This document shows, one piece after another, positions 18,208-47,330 of a stretch of 64,000 bases of DNA; position 1 is the first letter of the stretch, and every line of letters begins with the position of its first letter. The notes under the pieces were generated by a model, which ran no database searches, had not been told where the DNA came from, and saw only the letters and a program-made list of their open reading frames with translations. A program made the translations under genes and the position numbers. The DNA comes from Bryoerythrophyllum caledonicum (lineage: Eukaryota; Streptophyta; Bryopsida; Pottiales; Pottiaceae), in NCBI GenBank assembly GCA_963971425.1, contig OZ020517.1, forward strand, positions 17,822,904 to 17,886,903, in the 5' to 3' direction.

Positions 18208-18547
18208 CGGACACTCCTTCGACCCAAGCTGAAAATTACCGCGTCCATGAATTTACCGCAGTTGATGACATGTCTGCACATGTGGCATGCAGATTCCTTT
18301 CTGAATCCAACGTGTCTCTCCAGAGGTAAATGTGAAAATTGTGTTTTCTGCCATCAAAATGGCTCCGTCACAGTAAAGTCACGATCCGTCACAATGTCAT
18401 GCCGTCATTGTGTCGTGACATCGTGACATTGTGACGGAAATTGTCCCCGTCACGACACAATAGACAACCCTGCCGTCCGTCCTACTGTCCGTCCATTCTA
18501 CTGTCCGTCCGTCCGCTGTCTTTGGGCCCTTGTCCGTCTATGTAGAC

Positions 18548-24268: not shown

Positions 24269-24269
24269 G

Positions 24270-24942
24270 GACGAAGCTATCTTGCGTGCGGTGAGACGTG
24301 AGCAGTGAGCGGTGAGGCATGAGCGGTGAGCGGTGAGACGTGAGCGGTGAGTGGTGAGCGGTAAGGAAAAACTTGGTGAAAAGTTTTTGAAAAGTGTCTT
24401 TTTTTACTATATGAAAGTAACTTTTTTACTAAACAAAAGTAATTTTTTTACTATACGATCGAAATTAGACTACTGAAACTGAAAATTATGTTAACAAACA
24501 TAATTTGAAACAAGGACTTTTAGACGGCTTTATGATCATGAATTGAGCACTACAATATCTTGGAAATGACCATGGACTTGAAACAGGGTTTAGGGTCCTT
24601 CAAGAAGTGTTTGAGGTCCAAATTTGAACAACGGTCTGAGACGACCAAAAACTACCCGGGGGATATTGTCGGATACCTAGAACTATGAGGTCTACGGTTC
24701 GATTCTTGGCTGTAAACTCTTCTACTTTACGAGATAGCAGAAAGTAGGCATTGCAGCAGGATGTCCGACCCGGGTGAAAAAAAAAAAAAAAAAAAATTGA
24801 TAAAAAAAAAATAGGAGGAAAAAACAAGAGGGTAAACCCCGAATAGGTCATATAGTTGCAAATCCCACGGTGGCCCTGTAGTCTCACCGTCTCATCTATA
24901 TTATAGAAAATCAGTACAAGGGTGACTTCGTGAAATCAAACA
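24270..24942. other. MULE left terminal region, no gene
   Basis: GAGCGGTGAG repeats to about 24360, then AT-rich sequence with an A-run near 24778-24796. Short ORFs here have no support. Confidence 0.5.
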
Positions 24943-27900
24943 CTACGTGCAGCCCTTTTTCTGAAGGAGGACTTCGAGAACACGCTTTATCTCGTTGAAG
25001 CTTAAACTAGGGGCGTGCATATAGACATCCACTTCTGGATCAAGCTCACAAACAATGGTGAAGATATAGTATAGGTGTTTGCAGTAACACCATTGAGGAC
25101 GTCTGCCAAGTGACTTGCTAGACATCTCCTTGAAAGACAGGCAGTCACAACTGGGAAACTGACTGATAGAGATCATGTAGTTTGACACCTTAGTTATGGA
25201 TTTAGACTCGAACGAGAGAATGCAGCCAAAGGCGGGGTCATGGAGCATAAGAAGGTTACTGATTTTTCCAAGAACCAAAACCGCAGATGCGCAGATGTTC
25301 CGATGTCTCGTGGTTGGGGCCTTCGGATTCCGGCGGACGTTCTTGCCAAATCTCCGCTTCGGATGCTCATCTGAGTTTGCCGGAGTTGGAATAGATTTCA
25401 AGTCATAGACTGTACCATCCTGAGAGAACAACTTCCGAGGAGAGAGCATTACGCGCTTGGCGAGTCGAAAACCTGCATTTCCAAGACGTAGAATCTCGGC
25501 CTTCGATAGGGACGTGCGAGATTTCATCGGCCAAACGTCGGGGACCGCTGGCTTAGAAATAATCCAATCCCTCTTTGAACCCATCACACAGCGATGGATG
25601 TCATCGTTGCGAAAGAAAAATTGCATCCTCTCAAGCCTTGTCTTCTTATAGTTTTTCATCATGCCACTGTAGGTGGGTGCGGCAGTACTCTTGTTGTTCT
25701 GCACAATTTGAGCAGTACACTTCTTCTTCGTACCAGCTTGTTGTGCAAAGCAAGCTTTCACTGATGTCCTAGGCAGCCTTGCAATATGCCATTTGCTTTC
25801 GTCACAGGGCGTCTCCATAACACCTACAATATGCTTTACCCCTGCTGCAGTTCCTGTTTGAGGAAGACTGGTGGGGTTGGCTGGAGCGTCCCCCACTGGC
25901 GAACACACACACTCGTCAGTAGTAAGGTCCACAATAATTCGTGATGACGCCCGTGTCGTGACCCTGGGACGTGAAACGTTGATTTTGTCGGGACGATGAG
26001 AATCAAACTCAGATCCTAGAGGCAGGTCAGGCTTCCGTTTTAGGAACAAGAAGACTTCCTCTCCTTTCAAACGCGGAGGGCGAGTGCAAAATTCTGCAGC
26101 TCCAAGCATATTGCAGAAAGCCTCATGAAGTGCTTTGGAATTTCCCGAATGTTGAGCAATCCGTTGAGCAGCACAAAGTCAAAGCTCTTCCTTCCCAGGC
26201 CCTTGCCCTCCTCGCTCTCCTTTCAAGAATTGATAGCAAGCTACGACTTGCATGAATGCACGAACCATGTCATCAACAGTGGCAACGTATAAATCATTAC
26301 CACGCTTTCCGGACTGCTGCAACCACTTATTGTGGACAGTCTCCGCTAAATTGCAAGATGGCATTTCTGCCAATTCAAAATCTATAAGTCCCTATAGACC
26401 TCAATCAAGAGAATTTGAGTTAGAAACTTGTAATAAACGTACCATAAAATGAAGATACCGACCAATCAGAAAGCACAAGGCGAAGCATTCAACGTACAAA
26501 GTTCTTCTAGAATTCAGTGATCTTCAGGAAAGGGAAAAATATTAAGGCCACAAGAGAGAAAAGTACCACTCCAGGAAGGTGTGCCGGCAACGGCAGACCC
26601 ATTTGCTAAGCAAGAGGACACGGGCTGGCTGGTTTAAAATAAGTGAAACTGGGAATTGGAAGTCAAGGGAAAATCGGAAGTCTTAAAAAATCAGCTAAGA
26701 TGAGTAAATAAGACCGCCAGAAGAAGGGACAGAAAGAATTTTCAATGTAAAAATGCTCTTGCAAGTAGGTATGCCGTTGACGGCACACCCTTAACCAGTG
26801 GTACAAAACTCACTAGCAAGGTCAACACAACAAGGGTGTGCCGCTAACGGCACACCCTTAACGAGTTGAACAAGACTCACTAGCAAGGTCAACACAGCAA
26901 GGGTGTGCCGCTAACGGCAGACTTTAAACCAGTGGTACATGACTCAATAGCAAGGTCAACACAGCAAGGGTGTGCCGCTAACGGCACACCAGTTTTGACT
27001 ACAAGATTCAGACTGCCGGTACATTGGTGCTAGAATATGTGAATATTAGATTGACTAAATAACTGAAGATTAGATTAGGATAAATTTATCAATTATATAA
27101 ACTATGTGGCAGGAGAAAAAAAGGACATACCGATACCATAAATCCACCCCATTGTCGGTATCAAAAATGCCAGAAGGCTAGCCATAAATCCAGACGTACG
27201 GCACCGGCATCCGATGTTGCGCCCAACGACAACCACCACGCTTTGATCGCCAAGTACTTTGCTTCGGCATCCTCCATACTCTTTGCATCTTTGTATAGCT
27301 TGCAAAGCTGACGATGTTGCTCTTGAAGATCGGCTCTAATCTCAGCCTTCGTATGTTTTTCAAGGGATTGAGTCCAATGAAAAAGGCACGTTCTCTCCCG
27401 ATTGTCCATCGGGACTGACGCATCACCGCTCCCGTAAAGAATGCGGACCGCATTCCACTTGGCCTGTGCGCTATCAGCCATGAATCTTTTGAAAGAAACT
27501 GTCAGACAGTCGTGTCGTGCAACAACTGCATTCAAGTTCTTCCAAAACACTAGCTGAGCTTTGACGTCCTCGGATTGCATGTCACATACGGCAATCGTCA
27601 TCACACGGCAGTAGGTTGAGTTGTACACATGACAACCCATCGTCGTCCATCCCTTCACTCGTTTGACATGGTCAAACATGATCCAGGAATCTTCAAGGTC
27701 TCCTCCAGGTTGCATTCGTTTCACAAGATCAACGCCGCTGCCAGGTCCTACTTCTGCCATCTTGAAGACGAATACCTTGTCCGAATCAGCGCCTTGCCCC
27801 GGAAATCTATTCTCCTGAACAAAAGCCCAGTTGCTTGATCCCCGAAGTCTAGTGATGCTATCCATTACACCAAAGCGTCGCAAATATCTAAAGTTTGTTA

Positions 27901-29252
27901 CCTCGTTTCGGATACTAGGAGACGTCATTTGTTTAAATTTCTCAAGGACCGGAACTAGTTCGTCTAAGACTAGTGGCTTCTGTGAAACTCCCTCTGGACA
28001 TAGCAGAAGCTCACCGAGAAAATTCCTTGCTTGCTTCTAAAATAATAGCAGAGTTTGTAGCAGATGGGGTCCGCTCTACTTGCTCAGAAATGAGAGTCTT
28101 AAGCTTTGTAGAAGAATCTCGGCAGTTGCCTAATTTTACCGGATGCTCATGTGTTCCAATATGGACACATAAACAGGACATGGTGTCCGTTTCAAGCACA
28201 TAGTATATTTTGGCTTTGCAGGTTTCTAAGCAAAAAAGCTGAATTCGGCAAAGTTTGCAGACAACTGTCGAACCAGGAGGAGAAGTCCCACCGACCCCGA
28301 AAACTGATGAGGACGTGCCCTCCCATTCGGTCTCATTAACGTTTGACGCTCTATTTTTCCGCTCTAAGTATTCGCATTGAGGATTGAGACATTGCAAATG
28401 CCCCAAACAAGAAGATGTCCTAAAAGTGAGGTCCGAATCATTGGCAATGTGAGTGGTCACGGTTCTTGTCCAACTATGGCCATCATGTTTCTTATCCATT
28501 CCCAAGAGCGACCCAGCCTGTGATGAAGCAATTCCCTTCCCAAGGGGAGGAAGCTCAAAGAGAACATCTTTTTTGAAAGCTGCTGGAAGAAAGTCAACCT
28601 TCTCAACTCTAATAGAATCATAATCTACCTTCGTTAAAACTGAATTTGATCTGGATCTAGACCGAAGGTTACGTAGACAGTCGATAGTACTGGGGAATTG
28701 AACAGGAGTTGAAACCAAAGGAGGTTTGGACTTAGGAGGTAGAGAGGAGGTGCCAACCGTTGCTTGAGGCCTGGCCGGAAGTGACGATGTTTTTTCGAAT
28801 TCGAATGGACTAAAACCGAGACTGTCACTGTCGGAATCATCGCTAAGGATGTGAATCGAGTTCTCCACTGGTTCTAGTTTCACTCTCTGCATCAAAGGTG
28901 TCACCTGGGTTGCAATGGTAGTCAACTTCGGAGTTAAGGAAATTGAAGGGGAATCGTCAGGCACCTCCCTAGGTCCATTCACTCTGTACTTCCCACACCG
29001 AAGTGACCAGACTACAACGTTGAATCGATTACTAGATGACTGAGCTATCGTGTGTGTGAGCTCTCCTATAACCTCGTCAAATTCCTCTTTCTCAACATTC
29101 AAGGACCCCTCAATGATATTGAAACGCTGACTTAAGTGAAGAGAACTAACAGTTGCTAAACCCTCGGAATCAGTAGTGAAACAGAGCGGGACGCATGCAG
29201 TATCCCCTTGGATTACGACGGATCCCGCCTCATAATCCGCCAAAGAAGCCAT
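24943..29252 (-). pseudogene. MULE-type transposase with SWIM finger, two exons
   Basis: ATG at 29250-29252 (context AAAATGGCT). Exon 1 runs to 27131, with an acidic Ser/Asp linker (LSDDSDSDS), a Cys cluster (SCLGHLQCLNPQCEYL), a second Cys pair (VCKLCRIQLFCLETC) and the transposase core (FDHVKRVKGWTTMGCHVYNS, MADSAQAKWNAV, FHWTQSLEKH). Donor GTATGT at 27130 and acceptor CTATAG bound a 739-bp intron (26392-27130). Exon 2 carries a SWIM finger (CDCLSF...WCYCKHLYYIF, about 25065-25155). Breaks: one extra T near 28011; TGA replacing CGA near 27161 (the outer copy keeps CGA); and TGA at 26179-26181. Orientation and position beside the left terminus suit the autonomous transposase of the 18.2-kb MULE. 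Confidence 0.8.
26575..27000. repeat. Palindromic minisatellite within the transposase intron
   Basis: GTGTGCCGCTAACGGCACAC, a perfect hairpin with an 8-bp stem and CTAA loop, recurs near 26834 and 26970. Variants lie near 26580, 26768 and 26908. The last units share spacers such as ACTAGCAAGGTCAACACAGC at about 75-bp spacing. All lie within the 739-bp intron. Confidence 0.85.
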
Positions 29253-31357
29253 TTTGAGCAATCAACAAAGCTGCAAATGAAAAGAGGGTGGAAGGAACAA
29301 GGGCTACTCCTTGTAGTGAATTGAAGGTGAAGCAGGGCACGGTCATATGCTCCAGCTAAGAATTAATGCACTAGCTAGATTTACAGTTGATTGTATTAAA
29401 ACATATCTCTTGCCGTCAAGAGCGGCTTTCCATGCAACAAATTTGGTGGCAAAGATAGGTATTTATGAGTAGCAGATCTCAGTATAATAAATTCAAGTCG
29501 GGACAATTTAGGAATTATGTTTTAAGGTCGTTCCACATTACAGGATATGAGTCGTTTGTTAAACAGAAATGTATTTTATTGAAGTCGTGGTTTGGTACAC
29601 TGAATTTATGATAGTGGAATACAAAATAAATAGGACGACGTTCACAAGAAGTATGGGGGCACTGCAATAAAGTGAATCTGGCGGTTAGATCACATTATGG
29701 TGAACTTAATGAAAATGAGTTTGGCAATGCCGGCTCGATTCATTTATGCTGGCAGTAGCTGGCGCCTAAAGGTGGGGGCACAAAATATTGCGCATCACTA
29801 TTAGTTGAAGGTGTAAAGAGAGTTTAGGAGTAAGGGCATAGCTAAAGTCTTTTTAAGCGAGGCAGAATATCTGAATCCATTTCACATGGACTTACGAGGG
29901 CTATCTTTGCCGATGAGCCTCTTGCTATTATGAAAAGACGAAAGCAGAAGCTCTATTTTAGTGATCGGAAGACATTGATGAGAAGTAGAGTAGTGAGAGG
30001 TATTGCAATGGGGAAGTCCAAGGATTCCTTTGGTGAAACTTCAAAGAAATTAGACTTTGAAGAAGTTCAGATTAGAGATAATAGAGAGAGGACTGCTCTT
30101 AGTGTAATTCCCGAATGTTTTGTTGGGAGCAGCCATTTGCCGGAGGAAGCCAATGAACTTGCAGAAGCAGAAATGAGTGAGTGGACCCAATTAGATCCTG
30201 AAGTGAGGGAAATGAAAGGTCGCTCAGGTACTTGAGTGACTGGATTATGTGAGCGAACATCGTGATGGACAGGAGATTAGAGAATGCTTAGTTGTGAATT
30301 GAGATAATGAAAAAGTTGAACTTCATTGAGAGTGAGTGTAAGAGGAGAGAGCGATTTTGGATCTATCGTTTGAAGTACATAATCTCTTTTCGTATTCCAA
30401 ACCATGTCAATCACTGAGGAGGACGTTTAAGGAACAGTAGAACATCTCTTCGTGAACATGGATTGTTAAACCGGCGACTGACCTAATTCGTGACTAAGCA
30501 ATATGGTCAATGCGATTTGATGAAAGTCGCACTTTGTTGTTGCTCTCTGACCTGAATATAGTTGCTTTTGTAGGAGAGAGAGAAGAGCGATAGGTTGGAC
30601 CGAGCAAGTCGTTGAAGGACGGCAGCGAAGCGGAATCGGCGGCTCTTTACACAGTACTGTTTACAAGCTTTATGTGAGGATTGCATTAGGGTTCCTGGCA
30701 TATCGGTGCGCGTTTGAGTAGGGTATGATTTGACTGGCGGTCCACATGTGATGTTCTTAATTTCTTTTGCGTTCAAGACTGCATTGGGGTTTCCTGGAAT
30801 GTTCATGGCGATTTGCGTAGCGAATTAAGGTGTCCCGCTGGAATGTTTGATCTGAATTGGAAGTTGGCGTTGCAGAGGCGATCGGAGTGTTTGAGGGCGG
30901 GGTCGGCACCTTCTCGAGGATGGACGGCGCCGAGGCGGATTCCGCGGGGCGATCAACAGGTGATAATCAGAAGTGTTTTGTGAGAGTTTAGGGCCTTAGG
31001 GTTTCACGGATATGGCTGCGTATGTGTTGATCGCAAGTCTTAGCAAATTTGCATTTGGGTTTATTCCTGGTGTGGCTTCTTTTTTCGAGTAGCAAACTTA
31101 ATGGACCCGCAGGAAGGTGTATTCTGACCTAGGAGTTGGAGCTGCAGGCGAGAGAGACGTAGTTGACGGCGGGGGCGGCACCTCATCGAAGATGAACTAC
31201 GCCGAGACTTATTCGGCGGCACGATCCACATGCGAGATGCTTGCTATATTTTTGTGCTGAATAAGTTGATCATAAGATTGAATAATTTTATCTTCCTAAT
31301 GAAAGAGGAGAAGCCTGCTCCATAGGACTTCCGTTACCGGCACTCCATTTGCGAAGT
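29253..31357 (+). other. MULE interior, possible small ORF at 29930-30235
   Basis: An ATG at 29930 opens 101 codons, Lys/Arg/Glu-rich (MKRRKQKLYF start), without a domain I know. It could be an early exon of the methylase gene downstream. Otherwise there is only AT-moderate sequence and two related GC-rich patches (near 30890-30950 and 31150-31210, both with GGCACCT and GCCGAG) that look like promoter or leader duplications. No other gene is seen. Confidence 0.3.
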
Positions 31358-33925
31358 TGTGAGCCCCCAAAACGGCTCACGATGTCATTTGGGCATTAAG
31401 TTTAACTAGTTAGCATTAGAAAGTGGTAGTTAGGGTGAGATGGTTAGACTAAACCACCCATTGTGGTTAAAGGGCTTGAAAAGGCCTTTTACTTGCCATT
31501 TCCTAATTTAGAAGAGGTCATCATCTCCAAGTGGAGATCTAATTTTGTTAAAAACCTAAAAATTAAAAGAAAGAAAAAAAAGGGAAAAAAGAAAACTTAG
31601 AAGACGAAAAGAATTCTTGCAAAAAGGGAGACACCTCAAACCACATGTGTTTTTAACACAATGGGTTGAAGCCTTGGGAAAAACACACTAAAAAACCAAG
31701 GAGGTAAGTAAACAAATAAGTAATTAAATAAACAAAAAACAAAAGTAAACAAAATGCGGAGTGCAACCATGATGTGGCCACTTTTGAGTTAATCTTTTAA
31801 AAAAAACATGCACGAAGTAGTGGCACATGGCCTTGGAAGAAATTAGAAAAGTTAGATGGTGACGAGGGGAGAAATTAGCACCAATTATTGGCGATCATGG
31901 GCTGCCCTTAATGGCATGCCGAAGTTACCTTTAAAAAAACTTTTTTTATTTTTGTTTTCTTCCTTCCCCCGAGCTGGCGAGGGGGAATTTTGGGTTTTCC
32001 CGGAGAATATTCCCCGGAATCTGCTGAAGAAACGCTGGACTTCCAGCGTGAGTTACGTGCGCGGCTGCCGTTGGAGCTGGAGGGCGCTGGGTTGACTGCG
32101 GACAGGAAGTTGTTTTCGCCCCCTCGTTTTTTTTTTGGTCGTGGGGTCTCGCGTCTGGAGAGGGGAATGGCGGAAGAGCCGGAGGGAGAGTTGGAGGGAG
32201 ACGAGTGAAGGGGAAGAGCCCCGCCTGTGAGAGTGTGTGCGAAGTAGGGTTTTGAGAGTGCAACAAGTTCGTAAATGTGGGCAGGCTCGGCGAGTGGTGC
32301 CGGAGGTGGTTGGGTTCGCGTGTGTGCAGCTGCAGATCGGGGGTTGTGTCTGGAGCGCCGAGGGCGCTGCACGGAACGGGCGTGGATCCACGACGGCAGA
32401 ACGGAGTTGCGCACGGATTGAGAGCGGAGGACGATCCGCGGCGTCTGCGAGTGGACCGTAGCGAGCATAAGTGAAGGCGGCGGTCGATTCTGTAAACATT
32501 GGAGGGGACGTGCACGAGTTCGAGGTCGCGTCTGTGCTGGATCCGAGTCGTTGTTGCACTAGAGTGGGACGCTTGAATCTGTGGGCGGAAGGTGTGAAGG
32601 CGCGCTTCGGTTGGGCAGGATCGGAAGAGGTGCTGGAGTCCGTGGAGGGCGGTTCAATTCTTAATCGCTGGTGCCGTGCACGATGAGGATGTGAGTGCAA
32701 GGTTCTTTGGTCTGTGAGGAGGTTGTGTTCAACGAGAGGAGCGCCGGAAGGCTGGAGCAGCGTGCGGAGCGGACATCGAGGTGCGGAGGAGGCTTTGGCG
32801 TGCACGAGGCAGCACAGGGCGAGCGATCGGAAGGGCTGAGGAAGCACCGAGGCGAAGACGAGCAGCTGTGGATTACGACAAGACGAGGGGCTCTGGAGTA
32901 GCAAGGAGCAGGGAGTCTCCTTGTTCCTGTTCCTACCCTCTGTTCTTGGTTGTCTCGATCTCCCTCCCTTCTTCCTTGTGTGCAAGCTGATTGTTCTTGG
33001 TTGTAGAAGGCTCCTGATTGCGTTAGTTGCCTAATTTCCTTGTGTTAAAACTAGCGCGGAAGCGCTGCCCAAATGATGGAAAATTAGGTTATTGGAACTT
33101 AGGCATGAATTGCCAATCAATTGACAATTGTCCACATTAGTAGCTGGTTCTTGCATGGTGAATTGAATTGTGGTGGAGTGTGTATGGAATTGTCATAGTT
33201 CCGTAATTGTTGTGGAGATGACTGCTGGTCGCCTTGGTGAGGGTCAATACACATGTTAACTTGAAGTTGTGGATTGCTCATTAAGTCGGTCGTGACAAAT
33301 TAGTAATAATAGGCGTTTAAAAAACCGGATTTGGACGATTACACCAGAAGTTATGAAGCTTTGAAGTTACACCAATAGCGTGCAATCTTTAAGAAGTAAA
33401 TCGAAGTCACTGATCAGTATTAAACGGCGGGTAAGTGAAGTAAGGACCTGAACCAAAAGTGGAAGTGAACGTAACAAAAAAAATAAAAAAAATAAAAAAA
33501 TAAATAAAAATAAATAAATAAAATAATAATAATAATAAATAAATAAAATAAAATAAAATAAAATAAAAATAATATAAAATAAAAATAAAATAAAAATAAA
33601 TAAATAAATAAATAAAAAGGGAAGAAAAGAACAGTAAAAGAACAGTAAAAGAACCATAAAAGGAAGATAAAAGAAGAATAAACCAGAAGTCAGAAGAAGG
33701 GCGTAGGAGTCAAGGACTGTGAAGTGAAGATAAGTGCATTAATTGAATTAAATACCTAACTTAGTTGAGCAAGTTTCACTAACCATATGATAGAGAATAC
33801 TTCCACCACTTGCCATCTTGTGTATGTGGGAGCATGAGCTCCTTGTAGTGATAACCTTGTGAGTAGGGTTAGGGTTCGGTGTCCACAATAAACCCTTCCA
33901 CAGAGGGGGGCTTAATTGGTTCACA
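31358..33925 (+). mobile_element. Solo LTR C (TGTGAGCC family)
   Basis: Starts TGTGAGCC, ends TTGGTTCACA, and is flanked by perfect GAAGT duplications (31353-31357 and 33926-33930). It belongs with LTR A (55315-57805) and B (60155-62386): all start TGTGAGCC, carry GCGCGGAAGCGCTGCCCAA in the second half, and share the end. The GC-rich centre (31970-32990) gives long minus-strand ORFs (310 codons, Pro/Ser/Arg/Thr low complexity) that I do not call. No internal region or second LTR exists here, so it is a product of LTR-LTR recombination. Confidence 0.85.
33476..33622. repeat. (TAAA)n and (AAT)n simple repeat within LTR C
   Basis: A continuous A/T tract of AAATA, AATAAT and AAATAAAATA units. 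Confidence 0.9.
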
Positions 33926-34059
33926 GAAGTCCTTGTCTACATTAGGGGGACTTGTCAGATGGATTGCCGGCAGCGGCAGTCCTATCGCGCAGGTTTATTT
34001 TGAGAGACTAGAAGGCTCGAGCTGGATGTTGGGTCGATGGAAGACTAGGATCTAAGATT

Positions 34060-34763
34060 GCTGTCAATGAGCACACCTCCATTTTACTTCATTCTAATTT
34101 CACTCTCCATCAAGACATCTTATATTCAATGTCGGTGCATTGCAAAGATTCAAAGCGAGTCCGAGACAGAATTAGAGACTCACAACTCTTTAAACTCAGC
34201 TATGCACCAATCAGGTAATCTGCTGAAATTATCATTTGACTTGTAATTTCACCACTAACATCAATGTTTGGATAGGAAATTCTCCCGCGGAGAGGTTGAA
34301 TGATGATGGTGCAGATAGTGAGGGGGTTGAAGTTTCAAGGTCGGAGAGAAGATTAGCTGAACCACTCTCTGCTGCGGAGTTGGAGAAACAAATGGATGAT
34401 CTTGTTCTTAAAGAGACAGTCAACACCACAGCGCTGCTTGATGGACTCCGATTTCAACCAAAGGAGAAATCAAAGCTTGACATCCCCATATGCCGGATGA
34501 TTGGGCTGCCAATCGTTCGGCCATACTTGAAGAACGATGTCCAGGGGCTAGGATCTCACTTTCTGAAGAACGAGTATATGGAAGGCTCATGTGATTTCTA
34601 TATGGCGACAGAGAACCACGAGGGGAAGTCGATCGATGTCTCAGAGGAAATCATGAAGAGTTGGAGTTCAGCTCGGACTGAAGCGAACAAGGCGTTTGAG
34701 CAAAGACTGAATTTAGATCCAGACTTTAGAGTATTTTCAAGGAAGATGTTTCATTTCTGGGAT
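34060..34763 (+). pseudogene. ParB-like / DNA methyltransferase gene, 5' part
   Basis: One exon ends at 34214 (SETELETHNSLNSAMHQS) with donor GTAATC. A 61-bp intron (34215-34275) ends GATAG, and the next exon joins in phase (GNSPAERL). An acidic linker is followed by a ParB/sulfiredoxin-like start (DIPICRMIGLPIVRPYL, DVQGLGSHFLKNEYMEGSCDFYM) leading to KMFHFWD. The exon is cut exactly after the Asp of the DGNHR motif by the fold-back hAT and resumes at 39078. The ParB assignment rests on the pattern of a short substrate-binding segment followed by DGNHRLQA, and is inference. The true first exon is not identified. Confidence 0.6.
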
Positions 34764-34946
34764 CAGGGTTGTCATAACGGACGGGTTGAAGTGATCGGAC
34801 GAGACAACCGGACAGGCGGTCCGGACGGTACGGACGGACGGTTCGGACGGATTGCCCGAAGTGCGCCCAGTAAATTTTTGCAAGTAAGAAATTTTTACTG
34901 TGATCGCCACGTCAAATACGGACGTGTCACGCCACCGTGGCACAAG

Positions 34947-35963
34947 GGCGGGGACGTCCCCGCCCCTAAATGGCAGGGGCGGAGACGTCACCGCCCCTCC
35001 TCGCCCAATTTTGGAATCAGGATCTTTAAACGGCTATATCTCACTCAAAAATAGTCCAAATTAAGCGTGTGATATGTTTTTTGGCATCTACGGAAATTTA
35101 GATGTCAAATCACACCTCAAACGCTTAATTTGGGCTGTTTTTGAGTGAGTTATGCCCATTCAAACATTCTAACTCCAAATTTAGGCGGGGAAGGGGCGGG
35201 GACGTGAGGGCGGAGACTCAACCCTTTGATGGTTGTAGAGGAACAAAGTTGGGCAAACTCCATTCTCGCCTTGGCAAAGGCCTTCCTCCTTCCCATGCGT
35301 TAGAGAAACGATATTTTTAATGTACATTTAGTTTTCCTTCCAACTTCTAGGGAATGACATGATTGCCGTGATGATTAGGGAATGCAAAGATCTTGTCGGA
35401 ACCAAATATTGCAACTTTTTGTTCTAAATGATTCTATTGGACTTGAGTTAGGAGAAGAAGAAGAACTATGGTCTTCCAATGGGACCGGCGTGAATGTAGT
35501 GTTCGTTCATTCTCTTCACTAAGCATATGGCCACGGGACATAGGCTAGTGTGTATAGAACTACTTCCCCCTCTTGAGGATAAACACTTTTTTACTCTAAG
35601 TGTTTTTATATACTAATTGCATTAGTGACAACCGACATTTGATCTCCCCCAAGGACTTTGTAGGTTCCCATACAACGGAGCCGTGGGACCCTCTACCATA
35701 ATTGGGTGGACTATGGTGGTACTTGAATTAGAATGTTGTATTACGCTATAAACAACAAATTCTTCTTGACATTTTCAAAGAAGGTAATATTCTTTGCACA
35801 AGTGAAACCTCCTTTATTATCGACGGACAAATACCATTGAGCAATGTGGTTTTAATGTAAAGATGTGTTCTTAAATGACTCATCTTCAGGTCATATTCAA
35901 ATTTATGAAGCATAATGTCGAATCATCGAATGTCCATATATCCCTTGTGTAACAACCCTTAAA
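34947..35963 (+). repeat. Left arm of the fold-back inverted repeat
   Basis: Reads from GCGGGGACGTCCCCGCCCC through TTGAGTGAGTTATGCCCATT and CCAATGGGACCGGCGTGAAT to TGTGTAACAACCC. The reverse complement is at about 37240-38235 with scattered substitutions, more toward the loop. Confidence 0.9.
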
Positions 35964-37239
35964 CTTTACTTTAGAAAGGAATTACGCAACTCAACTTTAC
36001 AAACAAATTATTTAAACATGCAATGAGAGAGAAATATATATATCCTCAAACATAAGGGCTTTTGTAAACTTCTAACCATCGAGGAAATGTACAAGTTACC
36101 CAACAATAAAATGTTGCATGAGTGCCCCACAATAAATACCCCCTTTTCATCCATTGAGAAATAGTGAGAACCTAAATCACTGTAATCTACCATTCAAATT
36201 TTGTACCTATTTTTTCCATGATATTTTGTATGTATCAATTACATAGTTCTTTGACATTATATCTATTTATATATTATTTATAACCATATTTCACACTTTT
36301 AAAGCAATGTATGTTTCATGTACTTTCTTTAAAAAATTTATCCTAAGTGAATATTTTTGCCCCTATTTATTTATCGTACGTCGTTTCTACAATTTATGCG
36401 AGTGGCCCCTTCGAGATTACTTTTTTTCCCAACTTCCCCAAAAAGTGTAAACGTGCTCTACTTGGGTTAAAATGTATTTTAACAACAAAGAAAATACTAT
36501 GTTTTTGGAATCTTAGAAGAAGGTAATAAGCTTTATATATAAGTATTCTACAATTGAATCCAATGTTAAGAAGGGGCATGGAAAGATAAACAAAAAAGTT
36601 AAGGAAGATATAAATAATTTGCACGTGTTAGAGGAAATGTAATAGTTTCTATTTGAACATAAAGAAATTGACATTCCTATTTTATAAATACGGCATATGT
36701 ATAGTACATCACAACGTCAAAATTATATTCATTTAGGAAAAGAATTTCATACAAACCATACAAAGTTCTATCATTATTGTATATAGACATGAGTTCAAGA
36801 AAGAAGTTAATAGTTATGTCCTATATTGCTAGAAATTTTACTAGAGCTTCTATTGACATTTATATTTTTTGTACATCTATATGGATACTAAAAAACATTT
36901 GGTCGTGTATCTCTCCCCTACATCCATAGCTTTTACAATAGACATGTTTAATGTGACCTTTTGAAGGTGTCACCCTTAGTTGCAAAGCCTTTTGGAGTTT
37001 TATCTAACCTTTGCAAGGTTTAATCAATTTAAAGTTAAATTGACACCATTTAGTAAGAAGTGTTGTGAGAGAATCACTTCGACTTTGGAACATTGTGGCC
37101 TTTCGAGAATGCTTTTATTTGCATCATCTTTCTTTATGATTGAATAAAGCGATAAATAATCATAACCTCAACGATTTAAAGATAGATATTTCATCGACCC
37201 TACGGTTATGAAGAGTAATTCGTAGATTGTTCCAAAGGG
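35964..37239. other. AT-rich loop of the fold-back hAT, no gene
   Basis: Very AT-rich. Short ORFs only, none with recognisable content. Confidence 0.6.
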
Positions 37240-38235
37240 GTTGTTACACATTAGATGATTCGACATTATGCTTCATAAATTTGAATATGACCTCAAGATG
37301 AGTCATTTAAGAACACATCTTTACATTAAAACTACATTGCTCAATGGTATTTGTCCGTCGATAATAAAGGAGGTTTCACTTGTGCAAAGAATATTACCTT
37401 CTTTGAAAATGTCAAGAAGAATTTGTTATTTATAGCGTAATACAACATTCTAATTTAAGTACCACCATAGTCCACCCAATTATGGTGGGAGATCCTACGG
37501 CCTCGTTATATGGGAACCCACAAAGCCCTTGGGGGAGATGACATGTTGATTATCTTTAATGCAATTAGTGTAGGGAACACTTAGTGTGGAAAAGTGTTGA
37601 CCCTCGAGAGGGGAAAGTAGTTCTTTATACACCAGCCTATGTCCCGTGGCCATATGCTTAGTGAAAAGAATGAACGAACACTACATTCACGCCGGTCCCA
37701 TTGGAAGACCATAGTTCTTCTTCTTCTCCTAACTCAAGTCCAATAGAATCATTTAGAACAAAAAGTTGTTATATTTGGTTCCGACAAGATCTTTGCATTC
37801 CTCAATCATCACGGCAATCATGTCATTCCCTAGAAGTTGGAAGGAAAACTAAATTTACATTAAAAATATCGTTTCTCTAACGCATGGGAAGGAGGAAGGC
37901 CTTTGCCAAGGCGAGAATGGAGTTTGCCCAACTTTGTTCCTCTACAACCTTCAAAGGGTTGAGTCCTCGCCCTCACGTCCCCGCCCCTTCCCCGCCTAAA
38001 TTTGGAGTTAGAATGTTTGAATGGGCATAACTCACTCAAAAACAGCCCAAATGAAGCGTTTGAGGTGTGATTTGGCATATAAATTTTCCGTAGATGCCAA
38101 AAAACATACCACACGCTTAATTTGGGCTGTTTTTGAGTGAGATATGGCCGTTCAAAGATACTGATTTCAAAATTGGGCGGGGAGGGGCGGTGACGTCTCC
38201 GCCTTTGCCATTTAGGGGCGGGGACGTCTCCGCCC
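37240..38235 (-). repeat. Right arm of the fold-back inverted repeat
   Basis: Reverse complement of the arm at 34947-35963. It could pair with it into a hairpin of about 1 kb in a transcript. The outer part merges into the 295-bp tandem array. Confidence 0.9.
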
Positions 38236-38800
38236 CTACCATTTTGGGGCGGAGACGTCCCCGCCCCTAACGTGCCCACCCCTTCCCCGCCTAAATTTGG
38301 AGTCCGAATGTTTGAATGGGCATAATTCACTCAAAAATAGCCTAAATCAAGCATTTGAGGTGTGATTTGGCATCTAAATTTTCCATAGATGCCAAAAAAA
38401 ATATCACACGCTTAATTTGGACTATTTGTAAGTGAGATATGGCCGTTTAAAGATCATGATTCCAAAATTGGGCGGGGAGGGGCGGTGACGTCTCCGCCTT
38501 TGCCATTTAGGGGCGGGGACGTCTCCGCCCCTACCATTTTGGGGCGGAGACGTCCCCGCCCCTAACGTGCCCACCCCTTCCCCGCCTAAATTTGGAGTCC
38601 GAATGTTTGAATGGGCATAATTCACTCAAAAATAGCCTAAATCAAGCATTTGAGGTGTGATTTGGCATCTAAATTTTCCATAGATGCCAAAAAAAATATC
38701 ACACGCTTAATTTGGACTATTTGTAAGTGAGATATGGCCGTTTAAAGATCATGATTCCAAAATTGGGCGGGGAGGGGCGGTGACGTCTCCGCCCCTGCCA
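37911..38800. repeat. 295-bp tandem repeat, about 3 copies
   Basis: TGCCATTTAGGGGCGGGG starts at 38206 and 38501, and a variant at 38796, giving exact 295-bp spacing. The copies 38206-38500 and 38501-38795 are almost identical; the copy before 38206 is diverged. Each unit repeats the outer end of the inverted-repeat arm. Confidence 0.9.
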
Positions 38801-39077
38801 TTTGGGGGCGGGGACGTCTCCGCCCCTACCATTTAGGGGCGGACACGTCCTTGCGGCCAATATTTTATTTTATATAGTCAACTATTCATTTTTTTAGTGT
38901 AAATCCTGCGTGGCATCTCTTTAGTTCATTTGTGGCTGCCACGTCGCCTGTTTTTTACCTTGCAGGTAAGTCAACCCTATGTTGACTATATCGGACGGGC
39001 GAGAGCTCTATCGGACGGGCGTATCGGACGGACGGATGAATTGGACGTCCGTCCAGTATGACAACCTCGTCTGGGAT

Positions 39078-41395
39078 GGAAATCACCGGCTCCAGGCATG
39101 GTTGCCGATCATCAACCGAGATCATGGGGATGACCAACGTTGGCATTATGCGGTAGAGTCTATTGTGCTGAATGTGAATGGATACTAGGTAATTTCACTG
39201 TGTATTTTTGAAACATCCCAATTATAAAGTTCCAAGTAACATTCTAATTCGTTTCATTTCATGGCAGCTGTCTTTCGAAGCAGAGAAGCTTTTGGAAGAC
39301 TCTCTGTTGGATATTGGCATTCATGTGAATTACGACCCCGATGGTGGAGAGCCAATCACAAGGATTGCCGACTACATTGAGGAGATGCGCATTCAACTAT
39401 GGGAGACAACCTTTTTTTGGGAGTTTAATGTGGACAAAGGCGTTCACAAGAACTATGAATCAGCGGATCAGTGCGGGTTCCCCAGTGCGTTGCGACGTAC
39501 CTTATACAGGTATTTCACGTTTATTCTGATGCCGGCCCGAGTTGTGACCCGCAACCCTCCCTTCTTCAAATCGTACCTTGATCCCAGGGGCACATATACA
39601 ATGTTATTGGAGGGAATCAAGAAGGATTGGGGACCTCAGCACTGGGAGCGCTGCAGTTGGTATCTTGACTGCCCCGTTCAGAAACCTCCTCACTTCGACA
39701 TCTCACTCCGAGATGGCCTTCAGCTCGATCTGATTGGGGTGGAGTCCACTATCGAGGGGGCTGCCGTGGCTACCAAAGCTAAGGGTAAAGGCAAAGCTGC
39801 CTCAAAGAAGGCCAGGGGATCATCATCTCGCGACCCTGATGTTGAGGTCCTTATTCCACCATCAGTCACCACGGCCATCACATTACTTGCTGCAAGTGAG
39901 AGCTTTCAAGAAGATCATCCGTCTCCCGATGTTCCTGACTCCCTCTCGCGTCAGCCGGCCAATGTGGTGAAACGGAAGGCGTTTCATGACGCCTTTTCTC
40001 CACCGAGCGCGTCAGCTCCAAAGATGGGTATCAGAGTGGAGCTTTCGACTCTGCAAGATATGATGAATGGTGGGAAAGACCATCCCTGCATGAATCGACT
40101 GAACGAATTCATGCTTAAGGTGAGTGTTCTTCATCTTCTCTCCAACCATCCAATGTGCTTCCTATTTTGTTTCTTCTTTTGGTCATATTTTGGATCTTCA
40201 TGGAGTGCCATTGGCCGCGCTGGAATTCAGTACCTCGGTGTTTTCATTCCTGACTCAGTTTTATTTTAGTTCCCAACATCTTAATAGGTATTTGGTTAGC
40301 TTTGCCATTGAATGAATTCATCTGTTTTTGCTCCTTCATTACTGAAAATAATATTCATGATTTCTTCTTGCAGGTATACCCTCCGACGTCAAACCAGGCA
40401 CGAAGTGGAATACGTCCCCACCAAGGTTTTGATCTTGTTCTCGGAGACATCCCAGAGGGGTTGCGGGTTCCATCAATTTTGCGAGATTCAAAGGACATCC
40501 CACCATGGAATGTGTATTCCGAGCAAGTTGTTGAGGCCCTCTTTGAGTTCGCTGAGTTGTTCCTTCATGAGCAGGGGTGCGTTCTCGTTATCATTCCAGA
40601 GTTTGTGCAGCTCCGCACCGATGTGAGGTCATACGCTGCTGCATACGATTTCAAGCTACTCCGTGATTGGTGGGGTGTGAACGAGTTACCATTGGCGTTG
40701 CCCACTGATCCAACAAAGAAGGTTAGTCTTAATTTATCAATGCCAGACTCTGATTTTTAGTTCGATTCACCAACTAACAATATTCTATAATGTCATCTTT
40801 TTTTCAGACCCACCGTTTTCGGATCCTTCTCTACGTGAGAATTGCATTACCATTGGAGTCCTTCACATTCATTGTGAATATGGAGCTATCTAAGAGAGGT
40901 TGGGGAGTCGAAGAGACGGACGTCCTTCTCAATCACAATGACCTCAATACCCAGTCTATGCGAGGTACTGTTCCATGGAGGGCTGGAAGAGAGAAAGGCG
41001 TTATTTTTTTTCAGATGCTTTTCGAGGCTCTCACGAAGCCGAGTGGCGCAATTTTTGATGCATTTGCTTCTACAGGTATCTCATCATCTATCATCTTGTG
41101 ATTTTCATGTTTATCTTTCATTCCATTTCATTCCCACATTTCTTTTTCACGTAATCCCTATGAACAGTTCTAATCATTTCTTCTCTTCCAGGGAACTCCC
41201 TTCGCGCGTGTCGCGCTGCTGGTCGGCATTTCGTTGGCTTCGAATCCGATAAGTTGGTTTTTGAGGCGGTGTTGAAGCCACTTTTCATGCCCAAGCCGCC
41301 ACGATCTAGTTCCGCTATACCGGCCACCATGGACCTCACCATTGATGAAGATCCCCCAATCCGGAAGATCACAAAGAGAAATCGATTGAGTAAGT
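39078..41395 (+). pseudogene. ParB-like / beta-class DNA amino-methyltransferase gene, 3' part
   Basis: Resumes with GNHRLQAWLPIIN, completing DGNHR. Exons: 39078-39188, 39268-40119, 40374-40721, 40808-41075, 41192 to TAA 41393-41395. All introns are GT-AG. Exon 1 ends TAG just before GTAATT, where CAG would fit a splice donor, so this is a C-to-T nonsense change. The middle has a Lys/Ala linker (KAKGKGKAASKKARG). The C-terminal 220 residues fit a beta-class N4/N6 DNA methyltransferase: motif IV-like DLVLGDIP (DPPY in the family; 40431-40454), GCVLVIIPE, then KGVIFFQMLFEAL and motif I-like FDAFASTGNSLRACRAAGRHFVGFE (split between 41048 and 41250; family FxGxGTT). Both catalytic motifs are degenerate. 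Bacterial and phage proteins joining ParB and methylase domains are known. Confidence 0.65.
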
Positions 41396-42462
41396 AAGTC
41401 TTGTTTTGTATTCAACTTCTCTTGTTTTTTTATTCAGTTTTATTAATCTGATGTCGTTTTTTGTCTTCAATTTGATGTCGTTGGCTGCTTCACCGGATCG
41501 TGATTTCTCCCTCCCATCGTATGCCGGCCAAGCTGCAAACGAGATGGCAGACCTGCTTTCTCCATCATCAGCTTCAACTTCCACTAGTTCTCGTTTTCCA
41601 TCTAATGACTTTCTTGATCTTGAGGCTTTCGAGGACTCAGACAATGGCCTCTCATCGTCAGATAGTATTTGTAACTCATCATCCTAGATGCTTTGCGTGT
41701 GAACCGTATTTCATTGCAACAGTTTTATTGGTGACATGGCTTTCCAAGCATTTTCTCTCAACTGTTATCTTTGTTCTTTGTATTCTTTGCTTCTCTTCCT
41801 TCGTTGTGGTTTTCTCCCATTCCACTACAATATTCTCCCCACGATCACTCTTCCTTCAATCTCGTGAACAATTGTATTACGGTTGTATTCTCATTTCTTG
41901 AACTTTCTACTTCACTTTAAATCTTCGCCAAATCCACCGCCAGAGCTTCAACTCACTGTGTTATTATCCTTTCAATTCCAAACATCACAAGAATTTCCAG
42001 TATATTTTGTTACACTTTCTGCTCTACCCAAAACCCTCAAATTCGTTCATGTTCTTTATTCGAACGGAATATTACTAATTTCCCTTCTCTTTTCTGACAC
42101 TCTACCCACTAGGGACCTTTACTTCCACTACGATACCCTGTACTTTTAACGGATATTATAGGGGTTTTGCCGAGTGTCGTCCTTTACTCTAGTTCCTAGG
42201 CCAATTTTTTTAACCTTCCACAATAGAGAGCGTCTGCAGATATAGGGTTCCCTCTGACCTCTTCTTCTTGAGTCTTAACTAAAAATTTATTAAATTTCTC
42301 ATCATGACATCAAAATCATTACTATATTATAGAATTTGAGGTTCCTTCCAATTTGCTATTAGTAACATTTTTGAAGTGGATGCACTTCAAAAAGTTACCC
42401 CTCAACGCTCACCGCTCACGTCTCACCGCTCACCGCTCACCGCTCACAAGATAGCATTCTCC
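41396..42462 (+). other. MULE right end, possible extra Ser-rich exon
   Basis: A frame ending TAG at 41685-41687 encodes a Ser/Asp-rich stretch (SPDRDFSLPSYAG, DLEAFEDSDNGLSSSDS), which could be an alternative last exon of the methylase gene; I see no good acceptor in phase. From 41690 to 42400 there is nothing recognisable. 42400-42462 is the inverted GAGCGGTGAG terminal array. Confidence 0.35.
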
Positions 42463-45287
42463 ATGTTCACCCGTCCCATTTCAAGTTGGCTCAATACCTC
42501 CATCTGGTTCGACCTTAACTTGTAAGATATGTTCTTTCGTTCCAACTTGTGTTGCAAGTTGTGCAGCCAAAATCTACTATGTTCTTGGGAAGAAGGAGAT
42601 GAGGCGTGCCTGTGTTCACTTTGGTGTTCATGATGACCCTGTGAAGCATGGACTTTGTCGTGATTCTAAGGAAATGACGCGGTCTCTCATTTCGGATCAA
42701 GTTCAAAGAACTCCCACTGCAATTAACTCTTCTATTGCACTTGAGGCAAGTAAGGAGTTTCTGGGAGGGTTGTTTCTTTGTCCTGAAGGAGCCCTACCTC
42801 TAAAGTTTGGACTTGACGAACTCATGCTAGTTCTTGAGAAGCGCAAATACATGAGTTCTCCAAGTATTCAAAACGAGGTGAGTAGCTTCAAGCATTTCCG
42901 ACGGTTTGGTGTCATGGACAACATTACAAAGCTTTGTGGAAGCAGTAATTGGGCTTATGATCAAGAGAGTAAGTTCTCGGGTCACAGATTCAATATAGAC
43001 AAAGTTTTTGTCTTCAAGATGTTGGAAGTTGGCCCAGGTGGTGGTGTAGATTTGGTTTCACGAATGCAACCTGGGGTGATCTTTAAGATGCTTGCATCAT
43101 GTTTGATCATGTGAAGCAAGTGAAGGAGTGGACGATGATTGCATGTCATGTGTATGACCCAGGATACTGCCCTATAATGACAATTGCTATATGCAACATG
43201 GAGTCCGAAGATTCAATAGCACAGATGAATTTCTGGATAAATTTGAATGTAGTGATGGGTAGGCATGAAATTGCATTACCTTATTTCAATTTTCAAGGGA
43301 TTTATGGCTAATTGCGCACAAACAAAGTAGAATGCGGTGCACATTGTCTATGGGAGTCGTGATCCATCAGAGCCTATGCTCAATCGGGAACGCACATGTC
43401 TCTTTCATTGGACTCAATCAATGAAAAAACACATCAAAGCAAACATTTGCGCTGACCTTTAAGATCAACATCAAAAGTTGTGCAAGCAGTACAAGGATGC
43501 GATATCCATGGCGGAGTCTAAGATTCGATTTCATGCAATCCGAGCTTGTTGGCACTTGTCCGGGGCAACAACTGAAAAAGGACTTCTACGGCTCGAGCCG
43601 CATGGTTAGCTTTTTGGCACTTCCGATATAGGCAATGGGGCGGATTTATGTTCATTGTGAGGTTCTTCAACTCTTGTACTTGGTTTTTCTCAAGAAACTT
43701 GCTTAATTCAATGCATGTTAGTATTGATTTTATGATTCCGTATTCTAGCTACGGCATGTACCTCTCGTGCATCTGATGACATGATTGAATAGCGCAGTTG
43801 TTGTTCTGTAACTTCTCATTTCTTACTGCACTGACAGCAATTTCATTGTTCAGGACTTACTAGTTGATGAACTTGCAGAGATGCCATCCTGCAACCTTGC
43901 GGAACCAGTGCATAACAAATGGTTGCAGCAGTCCGGAAACAGAGGGAATGACTTATATGTTGCCACTATTGATGATTACGTGAGGATGTTCATGCAGATG
44001 GTTTGGTATTATTAGTTTTTAAAAGGTGAGAATCTTGGAACCAGTTCTGGTAAAGCCAAACTCCAGATACGGGTAGCACAGAGGTATGCTCAGCAAACCG
44101 GAAATCCGAAAGGACTCAATGAAGCCATGGCTACTGTACCAAGAGTAGGAGAATATTGCACAAGGGATCCACGTTTCGAAGGTGAGGAAGTTTTTGGCTC
44201 TCGGAAGCGGATGTCGAATTTGCCGTCCGGTTTTGAGCATGATTCACACTGCCACGACAAGGTGAATTTCTCTCGACCATGTGTACTTACACGGTCCACC
44301 CAAACAAGTCCACCTATGATTCATTTGAATACGATTTCAAAGGATTCCTTACCTCATGCGGTAGAAGAAGAGGCTAAAATCCATATGTCAAGTGGCCCAT
44401 TGAACGCATCAACCGCACCTCCAGTCAATCGCATAGAAGAATCAGCTTGTGATGAGTGTGAGTGGCACATTGCACGGTTGCCCAAGACGTTGGCTAAAGC
44501 ATGATTTGCCTTACAAGCTCTAACGAGGAAGAAATGCGTCACTAAGGTTGTGCAAGAGAACAGAGGAACAACTGCACCAACTTATATAGGGAATATGGAA
44601 AATTACCAGAAGGACAAATATGAAAGGATGCAGTTCTTCTTTTGCAACGATGACATTGAGCGGTGTGTTAAGGGTTCCAAGCGGAAATGGATTCTTTTGA
44701 AGCCTAAAGTCCCAAACGTTTGGCCAGTCAAGCTTGGAACTAATCTTACACCAAAAGAAATATTGGATTTTTAGAATGTAGGGTTCCATCTTCCTCAAGG
44801 TGTTGAGATGTCTCCCGGAAAGCTATTTAGGAATCGTGACCCTTCTCCAGATTTATCAGGATTCCAAGTTCCGCCTGTTCGAGAGGACCATCCGTGTACA
44901 CGGTCTGAGAAGAAGATTCAAGGAAATCTTGATGCACCAACAACAAAACAAGCAAACAATTGCGCTTCTGCACTCACCTTAAAGGCAGTTATTCGTCAGG
45001 TAACTTTGATTCCCAATCCTGAATTTGGATGCATTGTATTGCTTGATTTAGGCATCGCACCTTCAATTCAACAATACATCATTACAATAAGCTCGTTTCC
45101 TGAGTGCACTTGTCCTAATTTCAAGGAAATGTCAACGAAGGCACTAGGAAAGGGGGGGCAATGGGTGAATTGCAAGCATTTGTATTTCATATTGATTGCC
45201 ATCTGCCAATTTAGTGCGGAAGTAGATGTTTTTATTCATGCTCCAAGCTTTAGCTTCAATGAGATTAGCAACAACAAGACCGTGTGA
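42463..45287 (+). pseudogene. MULE-type SWIM transposase, outer copy, 3' part
   Basis: Continues in frame after the duplicated ATGTTCACCC. It aligns in order with the minus-strand copy: Cys pairs and AAKIYYVLG, VHFGVHDDPVKHGLCRDS, LEASKEFLGGLFLCPEG (the intact form where the other copy has an extra T), FDHVKQVKEWTMIACHVYD, FHWTQSMKKH. AWLAFWHFRYRQWGGF near 43600 is followed by an intron ending TTCAG near 43853. Then come ELAEMPSCNLAEP, a DNA-binding basic part, and the SWIM finger (CTCPNF...WVNCKHLYFIL, about 45108-45190). Many frameshifts and stops (for example TAA near 43460, TAG near 44013 and 44773). Confidence 0.8.
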
Positions 45288-46942: not shown

Positions 46943-47154
46943 TGTCGTAGTACGTGTTGGCAAGTATTCACATCTTAAGACAAAGATACCCTTAAGGTAA
47001 TCGTTCCCACAGGGAGTCACCGGGAACTACAACGGCTAACATCAAGCCAAAATCTATACAAGGTCAAATATACAATAGATACATCAAAAGAAAGGAGGGA
47101 ATAAAGGTTTAGATCACAAAGCCTGGGTGTTAACTACACCAATTACCCTGCTCT

Positions 47155-47330
47155 TCGTACGCATGTTGTCTCCTCGTACGTCCTACCTCGTACGTGTTAC
47201 CTCGTACGTCCTACCTCGTACGTGTTACCTCGTACGTCCTACCTCGTACGTGTTACCTCGTACGTCCTACCTCATACGTGTTACCTCGTACGTCCTACCT
47301 CGTACGTCCTACCTTGTACGCGTAGGAAGT
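47155..47330. repeat. 14-bp minisatellite in the E3 3' end
   Basis: TCGTACGTCCTACC and TCGTACGTGTTACC alternate about 12 times. Same position relative to the terminus as the unrelated 16-bp array of E1. Confidence 0.9.

Follow-up and report, generated by a model that had tools for sequence, protein, structure and literature searches.

Results

The locus

The window analysed here, a stretch of 64,000 nucleotides from the moss Bryoerythrophyllum caledonicum, contains an 18,195-bp transposon resembling the Mutator-like elements (MULEs). It carries two genes arranged head to head: a transposase gene, which runs from 29261 to 24943 on the minus strand, and a second, spliced gene, which we call the cargo gene and which runs from 34202 to 41397 on the plus strand (Table 1). 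An earlier note on this DNA had proposed a MULE of 18.2 kb whose cargo fuses a ParB-like lead to a beta-class DNA amino-methyltransferase. The window is part of contig C4, and the genome scans described below covered 437 Mb in 894 contigs.

The size proposed for the element holds. Its two ends carry related sequences (GGACGAAGCTATCTTGCG, and GGAGAATGCTATCTTG on the other strand), with imperfect terminal inverted repeats of the kind expected of MULEs (GGACGAA-GCTATCTTG and GGGGAATGCTATCTTG) and matching TGAGC arrays, and a perfect 9-bp target-site duplication flanks it on both sides; the MULE table of PMC6446971 gives duplications of 8-11 bp, mostly 9 bp. The element interrupts another transposase copy, whose open frame is restored when the empty site is reconstructed in silico. 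This interrupted copy is a diverged member of the same family, 46-64% identical to the transposase of the window element itself, so that the insertions are nested. Among eleven copies (the window and ten others, c1-c10, described below), the right end was located in all and both ends in seven. A perfect 9-bp duplication is present in 7/7 copies with both ends, compared with 3 of 5000 random places under the same test, which lets each end be displaced by as many as 3 bases. Where both ends were located, elements of this family measure between 11.7 and 18.2 kb. We read the window locus as a degraded member of a lineage of autonomous MULE-like elements with two genes.

Table 1. Features of the window element, its insertion site, and one exon of the second family
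Feature	Position	Strand	Basis or remark
MULE-like element, whole, 18,195 bp	24268..42462	.	Termini and 9-bp target-site duplication; empty-site view restores frame
Left target-site duplication ATGTTCACC	24259..24267		
Right target-site duplication ATGTTCACC	42463..42471		
Left terminal sequence, 7-bp-period TGAGC array	24268..24377	+	6 TGAGC per 130 bp versus 0.10 expected from interior
Right terminal sequence, 7-bp-period TGAGC array	42370..42462	-	5 TGAGC per 130 bp versus 0.10 expected from interior
Other transposase copy hit by the element, left part	23780..24258	+	
Other transposase copy hit by the element, right part	42472..45287	+	
Transposase, N-terminal and core exon	27161..29261	-	Two frames in window (28011-29261, 27161-28036)
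Transposase, C-terminal exon, SWIM-like CxC...CKH	24943..26178	-	Upstream part with NLAE read in c1
Five palindromes GTGTGCCG-N4-CGGCACAC, 0 or 1 mismatch, transposase intron	26579..26989	+	5 versus 0.08 expected
Cargo, probable first coding exon (MHQSG)	34202..34214	+	Conserved in copy c1
Cargo exon AB, first part, ParB-like lead	34276..34763	+	3' end broken by hAT-like insert
hAT-like insertion inside exon AB, 4,306 bp	34764..39069	.	Terminal inverted repeats CAGGGTTGTCATA / CGAGGTTGTCATA
8-bp target-site duplication TCTGGGAT of hAT-like insert	34756-34763 and 39070-39077		
Cargo exon AB, second part	39070..39183	+	DGNHR at 39075-39089
Scar of missing X1, X2 and the intron between	39184..39188	+	In-frame TAG left
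Cargo exon E4, central region of unknown fold	39268..40119	+	Open in window
Cargo exon E5	40374..40721	+	Motif-IV-like DLVLGDIPE at 40431-40457
Cargo exon E6, motif-X region and FDAFASTG	40808..41075	+	Motif I, from 41054
Cargo exon E7, NSLRACRAAGRHFVGFE (motif II side) to stop	41192..41397	+	
Family-2 exon X2a	about 14369-14566 of joined sequence		

The cargo gene and its copies

The pieces of the cargo gene that had been joined by eye were joined correctly: DGNHRLQAW, DLVLGDIP, FDAFASTG, and CRAAGRHFVGFE are all read in the window gene, and its GT-AG introns are sited as in other genomic copies. The window copy is nevertheless not intact. A hAT-like insert splits exon AB directly after the D codon of DGNHR, and exons X1 and X2 (47 and 139 codons), which all ten other fetched copies possess, are missing at about 39184. 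Within the insert, arms at 35094-35604 and 37576-38086 (96%) form a large inverted repeat, and a 295-bp unit occurs three times in tandem; the left end of the insert is duplicated as a 194-bp copy at 22165-22358 (92%).

Exon E4 has matches at 78 or more genomic places, of which the window is one and the other 77 share 67-90% identity with it. This count is a lower bound because only 78 candidates were scored, and a few small contigs in it may be duplicates. Ten of these copies (c1-c10) were taken with 20 kb each, and the exon series AB, X1, X2, and E4-E7 is found in 10/10; the protein that it encodes has about 955 residues. Every cargo exon is free of stops in c1, c2, c3, and c6, with CT for one GT donor and GGNHR in c1 and AA for one AG in c6, and the other six carry stops or frame breaks in cargo exons. 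A minus-strand transposase, whole or partial, lies upstream of the cargo in 9/10 copies; c5 has a fragment only, beside another element, and none was found within the stretch fetched for c3. With many copies, a transposase beside 9/10 of those fetched, and target-site duplications in 7/7, the gene is MULE-like cargo rather than a host gene. The outcome that would have spoken against this idea, namely that homologues exist solely as single-copy genes of the host and never within MULEs, was not observed.

The ratio of nonsynonymous to synonymous substitution rates (dN/dS) was computed for twelve pairs of copies. Over the whole protein it is 0.09-0.14 in the eight distant pairs. When those that involve the window copy are set aside, the distant pairs give 0.03-0.08 for exons AB-X1-X2 and 0.12-0.24 for the methylase exons; the ratios are rough in several pairs, where dS exceeds 1. 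Because there is purifying selection between distant copies, the element must benefit from the cargo protein. Among close pairs, c2-c3, c5-c6, and c7-c10 give 0.42-0.83, and c2 with the window copy 0.33, as would be expected from the decay of single insertions. Thus, the decay suggested earlier applies to single copies, the window among them, but not to the family, in which altered motifs are conserved and selection is purifying.

The two halves of the cargo protein

Members of the cargo family fall into four groups: family 1, which comprises the window copy and c1-c10; L056 and L057, known from one copy each; and a second family, described below. The Pfam profile N6_N4_Mtase matches 4/4 aligned members (best 3.8e-7), the first member scoring 24.2 bits, under the cut-off of 26.7. 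Eight places in the genome score above this cut-off, and the four that were fetched all belong to family 2. The best solved structures are DpnA (E 2.6e-4) and CcrM (E 0.032). One hhalign comparison was made with four methylases from phages or bacteria, selected because they had been found through family 2, and with the Brujita phage methylase (L040) left out; its alignment extends over 205 columns with E 9.5e-15. In the joint alignment, DIPE stands opposite DPPY and FASTG opposite FxGxG, and motif IV precedes motifs X-I, the order of the beta class. On the strength of these profile and alignment matches, we regard the descent of the C-terminal half from beta-class DNA amino-methyltransferases, as called earlier, as secure.

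A normal amino-methylase would keep the aromatic residue of motif IV and the first Gly of FxGxG. Here, motif IV reads DIPE in 10/11 family-1 copies, DIPK in c9, DLKD in L056, DFPD in L057, and DQPF in family 2, and motif I reads DAFASTG in 10/11 family-1 copies and in L057, FASIG in c1, DAFASVG in L056, and DLNASTG in family 2. None of DIPE, DIPK, DLKD, DFPD, and DQPF fits the pattern [DNS]PP[YFW] of active enzymes, and none of FASTG, FASVG, and NASTG fits FxGxG. The degeneracy reported earlier for motifs IV and I is thus real, and the alterations are fixed by group. Because both the catalytic and the S-adenosylmethionine (SAM) motifs are altered in this conserved way, the cargo is probably not a normal methylase enzyme. 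We think that the methylase half is a binding fold kept for another use; the family-2 protein may be active as a methylase.

The prokaryotic origin that the earlier note had inferred is unproven, in that searches of proteins, viral contigs, and prokaryotic genomes returned no relative of the whole protein. Among 5.8 billion proteins, no cargo relative was found at E <= 10 with a 557-residue C-terminal query or at E <= 1 with alignment A1, in a search that scored the best 8000 candidates by shared words and in a collection where exon-split genes may be missing. The 92 pattern matches in viral contigs and 44 in prokaryotic contigs likewise contained no cargo relative.

The N-terminal head contains DGNHRLxAW, which is identical in 5/5 aligned rows from the four groups, the ends of the series being only 39% identical over the head; DGNHR is changed in the single copies c1, c7, and c10. 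Read by eye, its elements (strand, helix, GY-loop, strand, DGNHR, helix, strand) follow one another as they do in ParB. GxxR is described as the Box II motif of ParB (PMC12704722), and DGNHR contains this signature of the ParB/sulfiredoxin fold. The profile tests of the same assignment were negative or borderline, and we therefore reject ParB as a proven identity. A scan of the genome with PF02195 (ParB) gave 0 matches, Pfam and NCBIfam returned a match for the head in 0/5 members, and it found no match in the PDB. In hhalign, the head scored 16.0 against twelve ParB proteins, under the shuffle maximum of 18.1 (n=30); after an insert of about 40 residues had been cut, the best alignment was in the right register and scored 20.6, above the shuffle maximum of 16.3 (n=40). 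With two other sets, the score of the insert-cut head was reached by 20 and by 2 of 40 shuffles. For a wider head query tried on four sets, 1 to 7 of 60 shuffles reached the cut version and 7 to 45 of 60 the uncut one. The ParB-like lead proposed earlier is thus upheld by motif and element order and left without firm backing by profiles, and we consider the ParB-like identity of the head likely.

The transposase

The N-terminal and core exon of the transposase, which is broken into two frames in the window, is a single 699-residue open frame in c1. The protein collection holds 58 relatives (P0002-P0059), 56 of them at 45-74% identity, on contigs of up to 750 kb; a precomputed Pfam domain is given for 0/58. 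The transposase keeps Asp, Asp, His, and a candidate Glu, and the two Asp are kept in 52/52 aligned relatives (alignment A3, from which 6 of the 58 were left out). No match to the MULE transposase profile of Pfam (PF10551) was found in the window, c1, or the three metagenomic relatives scanned. A SWIM-type zinc finger is common, although not universal, in the C-terminal part of MULE transposases. The SWIM profile PF04434 scores above its cut-off in one relative (P0058, 22.8 bits) and below it in the nested transposase copy of the window (E 0.26), and it has no match in c1 or in the window element's own transposase. These relatives may constitute an undescribed clade of MULE transposases.

A second family

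Family 2 is represented by a 19.7-kb element (C3:3856855-3876560) with the same head-to-head gene pair as family 1. Its copies are 97-99% identical over the stretches compared and are therefore taken to reflect recent activity. Relative to family 1, the transposase core is 48-52% identical and the cargo 32% identical over the whole protein (35-39% over a short part of E4). TGAGC arrays recur at the ends (3 and 6 per 130 bp), and target duplications, judged by eye, comprise 11 shared bases in one copy and 8/9 in the other. Across both families, cargo and transposase divergence correlate with a Pearson coefficient of 0.94 (36 pairs, 9 elements), or 0.67 in the 28 pairs without family 2, the pairs not being independent. 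The family-2 sequence (L052+L033+L054 joined) also holds a third open frame of 419 residues (22325-23581, minus strand) with a cysteine-rich end that is RING-like by eye and with no Pfam family above the cut-off.

Palindromes in introns

The introns of both genes contain a recurrent palindrome, which in family 1 takes the form GGTGTGCCG-N4-CGGCACACC. We counted 118 in ten elements (the window, c1-c4, and c6-c10, with c3, c7, and c10 in part; c5 was left out), 116 of them with the 4-nt spacer. The transposase intron holds 29 and the cargo intron between X1 and X2 holds 78; 7 lie between the genes and 1 after the cargo, and the remaining 3 lie in c10 to the left of the transposase core, in a region that yielded no C-terminal exon. 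In these ten elements, none occurs in the rest of the cargo gene. All five in the window are in the transposase intron, the palindrome-bearing cargo intron having been deleted from this copy.

Information in the 118 is 1.7 bits per base in the arms, 0.8 in the spacer, and 0.15-0.19 in the flanks, in a count that permits 3 mismatches and so favours conserved arms. When sites were selected by one arm only, on both strands, the other arm agreed at 7 or more of 9 bases in 214/242 cases, each palindrome being counted twice, compared with 0/12 in shuffles; this set has 0.58 bits in the spacer and 0.12-0.13 bits in the flanks. Few changes are paired across the dyad (at position 4, 10 double changes, 4 of them complementary; at position 3, 1), and for this reason we do not argue from covariation.

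Family 2 has a palindrome of its own, GGTGTTCTG-N2-CAGAACACC, at 12 places when up to 3 mismatches are allowed; the spacer is shorter at one of them. The transposase intron corresponding to that of family 1 contains 5 and a cargo intron another 2; a single one separates the genes, and 4 are at 20.8-21.0 kb. The family-1 palindrome was not found in family 2, nor the family-2 palindrome in ten shuffles. In L057, the X1-X2 intron contains four palindromes of the form GAGTGCCG-N4-CGGCACYC, one arm varying. Thus, the kind of place that the palindromes occupy is conserved, and their sequence changes along with the proteins between families. An RNA hairpin, as a first reading of the palindromes, was rejected on the 2-nt spacer of family 2.

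Other features of the window

A DUF659 hAT-type transposase lies at 18464-21264 on the plus strand (Pfam 4.6e-35 for the piece 19010-19723). A run of N at about 18000-18300 falls within a kinase-like open frame (16926-18353), and a 14-bp tandem repeat, TCCTACCTCGTACG alternating with TGTTACCTCGTACG, occupies 47139-47348. Plant-type telomere repeats (CCCTAAA) stand at the starts of contigs C1 and C7; C4 starts with N.

Discussion

The simplest reading of the palindromes is that one of the two element proteins recognises them. The cargo protein would be the better candidate because the ends of the element carry a different array, which would suit the transposase. In this scheme, the cargo would bind DNA in a sequence-specific manner, as a dimer or a clamp, would load at the palindromes, and would keep its own element accessible, an anti-silencing activity such as VANC provides for VANDAL elements; the transposase would use the separate terminal TGAGC arrays, and the methylase fold would serve mainly to bind DNA or SAM rather than to carry out ordinary methylation. 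As a whole, a two-gene MULE-like lineage with a predicted palindrome-binding cargo that protects the element is our best explanation, and we judge its chances to be about even. For anti-silencing itself as the role of the cargo, our confidence is tentative and falls a little short of that. A more specific form of the idea is that the cargo is a eukaryotic ParB-type clamp with a repurposed methylase, which would load at parS-like palindromes in introns of both element genes, spread along the element, and bar silencing, protein and palindrome having diverged together. We hold this form to be unlikely.

Several results weigh against a palindrome-binding, protective cargo. The link between cargo and palindromes is inferred, and the transposase could bind them instead. 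In family 2, the cargo palindromes lie in the next intron, inside the X2 region, and not in the X1-X2 intron of family 1, and the 4/12 at 20.8-21.0 kb are outside both genes; the family-2 motif also has a single match in c6, 1/10 family-1 elements. No palindrome was found in the one copy of L056, whose cargo introns, including X1-X2, were examined. The cargo has no sequence similarity to VANC, in that DUF1985 is absent from the Pfam matches of 4/4 members, the same run having returned only N6_N4_Mtase and two weak single-member matches. To these may be added the ParB profile searches and the approximate dN/dS ratios at high dS.

Other accounts of the same data have to be considered. The palindromes may be uninformative about the cargo, being transposase targets, RNA hairpins in splicing, or mere tandem repeats. 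Both genes share one element, which leaves the binding partner ambiguous, and in several copies successive palindromes are 64-75 bp apart, as tandem repeats would be. Against this account, the flanks of the arms are nearly empty of information over all copies (0.12-0.19 bits), and the 9-bp arms of family 2 with their 2-nt spacer cannot close as a full RNA hairpin; we consider this account rather unlikely. A related view accepts that the cargo binds the element but holds that it assists the transposase as a transposition helper, with no role in silencing. Second open reading frames such as mutB and vanB are known from MULEs (PMC6446971), and the correlated divergence of cargo and transposase (Pearson 0.94; 0.67 without family 2) speaks for this view. 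The palindromes, however, are internal and mostly intronic, and it is a different array that the ends bear, so that a helper role seems unlikely to us.

The cargo could also be an active, if atypical, DNA amino-methyltransferase (N6-adenine or N4-cytosine) that marks its own element, for protection or for the timing of transposition. The beta-class order IV-X-I has been kept under selection. The Asp of motif IV is present in all four groups, the final Gly of motif I is retained, and motif II still has its Glu in most copies, c8 and c10 having Lys; D-I-P-Y occurs in one phage protein annotated as a methylase and in one that is unannotated, and family 2 has DQPF. Yet the aromatic residue of motif IV is replaced by E in 10/11 family-1 copies, by K in c9, and by D in L056 and L057, with F in family 2 only; L056 (DLKD) lacks the proline as well, and all four groups have Ser in place of the first Gly of FxGxG. 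In the bdelloid N4C methylase, changing SPPY to APPA is reported to abolish activity (PMC8885841). On these motif changes, an active methylase was set aside as a first choice, and we regard it as improbable. Finally, the gene might be a decaying fragment of a host or bacterial gene that was captured and is passively transported, in the manner of a Pack-MULE. The window copy is broken twice, 6/10 other copies have stops or frame breaks in cargo exons, and young pairs show dN/dS of 0.42-0.83. Such a pseudogene would hardly yield the stop-free copies c1, c2, c3, and c6, strong constraint between distant copies, or the same gene in the same orientation in two old families; selection largely refutes this account, which is very improbable.

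If the ParB-type clamp is correct, transposon anti-silencing would have been invented once more, without relation to the known systems, and the ParB fold, known in eukaryotes mainly as sulfiredoxin, would there serve for loading onto DNA. The ways in which transposons protect themselves from silencing are known in detail for few systems, and the cargo family is a good candidate for a new route. A single genome with at least 78 copies makes both the methylase-derived cargo and the intron palindromes readable, together with their changes between families, and the co-evolution of a protector with its target sites thereby becomes directly testable. ParB-like loading and spreading would suggest a physical way in which one factor could cover a long element.

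We found no report of a methylase-derived, ParB-like cargo in a MULE among open-licence papers, which is weak evidence of novelty; the literature does describe transposons of other kinds that carry genes for DNA modification, and phages and bacteria in which ParB is fused to a methylase. The fusions of ParB with N6_N4 methyltransferases resemble the cargo in joining a ParB-type domain, with GxxR in the head, to an amino-methylase (PMC12704722, PMC5512222). The cargo differs in that its sequence, some 955 residues in all, includes a long middle region and a head insert of about 40 residues, in its altered catalytic motifs, and in being split by introns and carried on a eukaryotic DNA transposon, with no close relative detected. 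Transposon-borne DNA methyltransferases are described in dinoflagellate and charophyte retrotransposons (PMC5890265), but these are C5-cytosine enzymes shown to be active, whereas the cargo is related to amino-methylases, resides on a DNA transposon, and is probably not a normal enzyme. The TET/JBP genes of fungal DNA transposons are likewise DNA-modification cargo that likely acts against silencing; they oxidise methylcytosine, and MULEs are not among the carriers named in PMC12730594. The bdelloid N4CMT is, like the cargo, a bacterial-type amino-methylase in a eukaryote, but it is described as a host gene with canonical SPPY that helps to silence transposons (PMC8885841). VirB of Shigella provides an example of a ParB-superfamily protein with an anti-silencing function; it is a bacterial regulator, described without a methylase domain, and the analogy is one of mechanism only (PMC10653881).

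A close parallel is VANDAL21 of Arabidopsis with its anti-silencing protein VANC. This element, too, is MULE-type and has a second gene beside the transposase, and its arrays of short motifs, which occupy introns and upstream regions, vary from one related element to another (PMC5735166). The VANC21 motif is reported to form tandem arrays within introns of both VANB21 and VANC21 as well as upstream of VANA21 (PMC5735166). VANC is a DUF1985/DUF287 protein with no sequence relation to the cargo. In our system, the motif is a palindrome of 20-22 bp, and the protein that we predict to bind it is methylase-derived.

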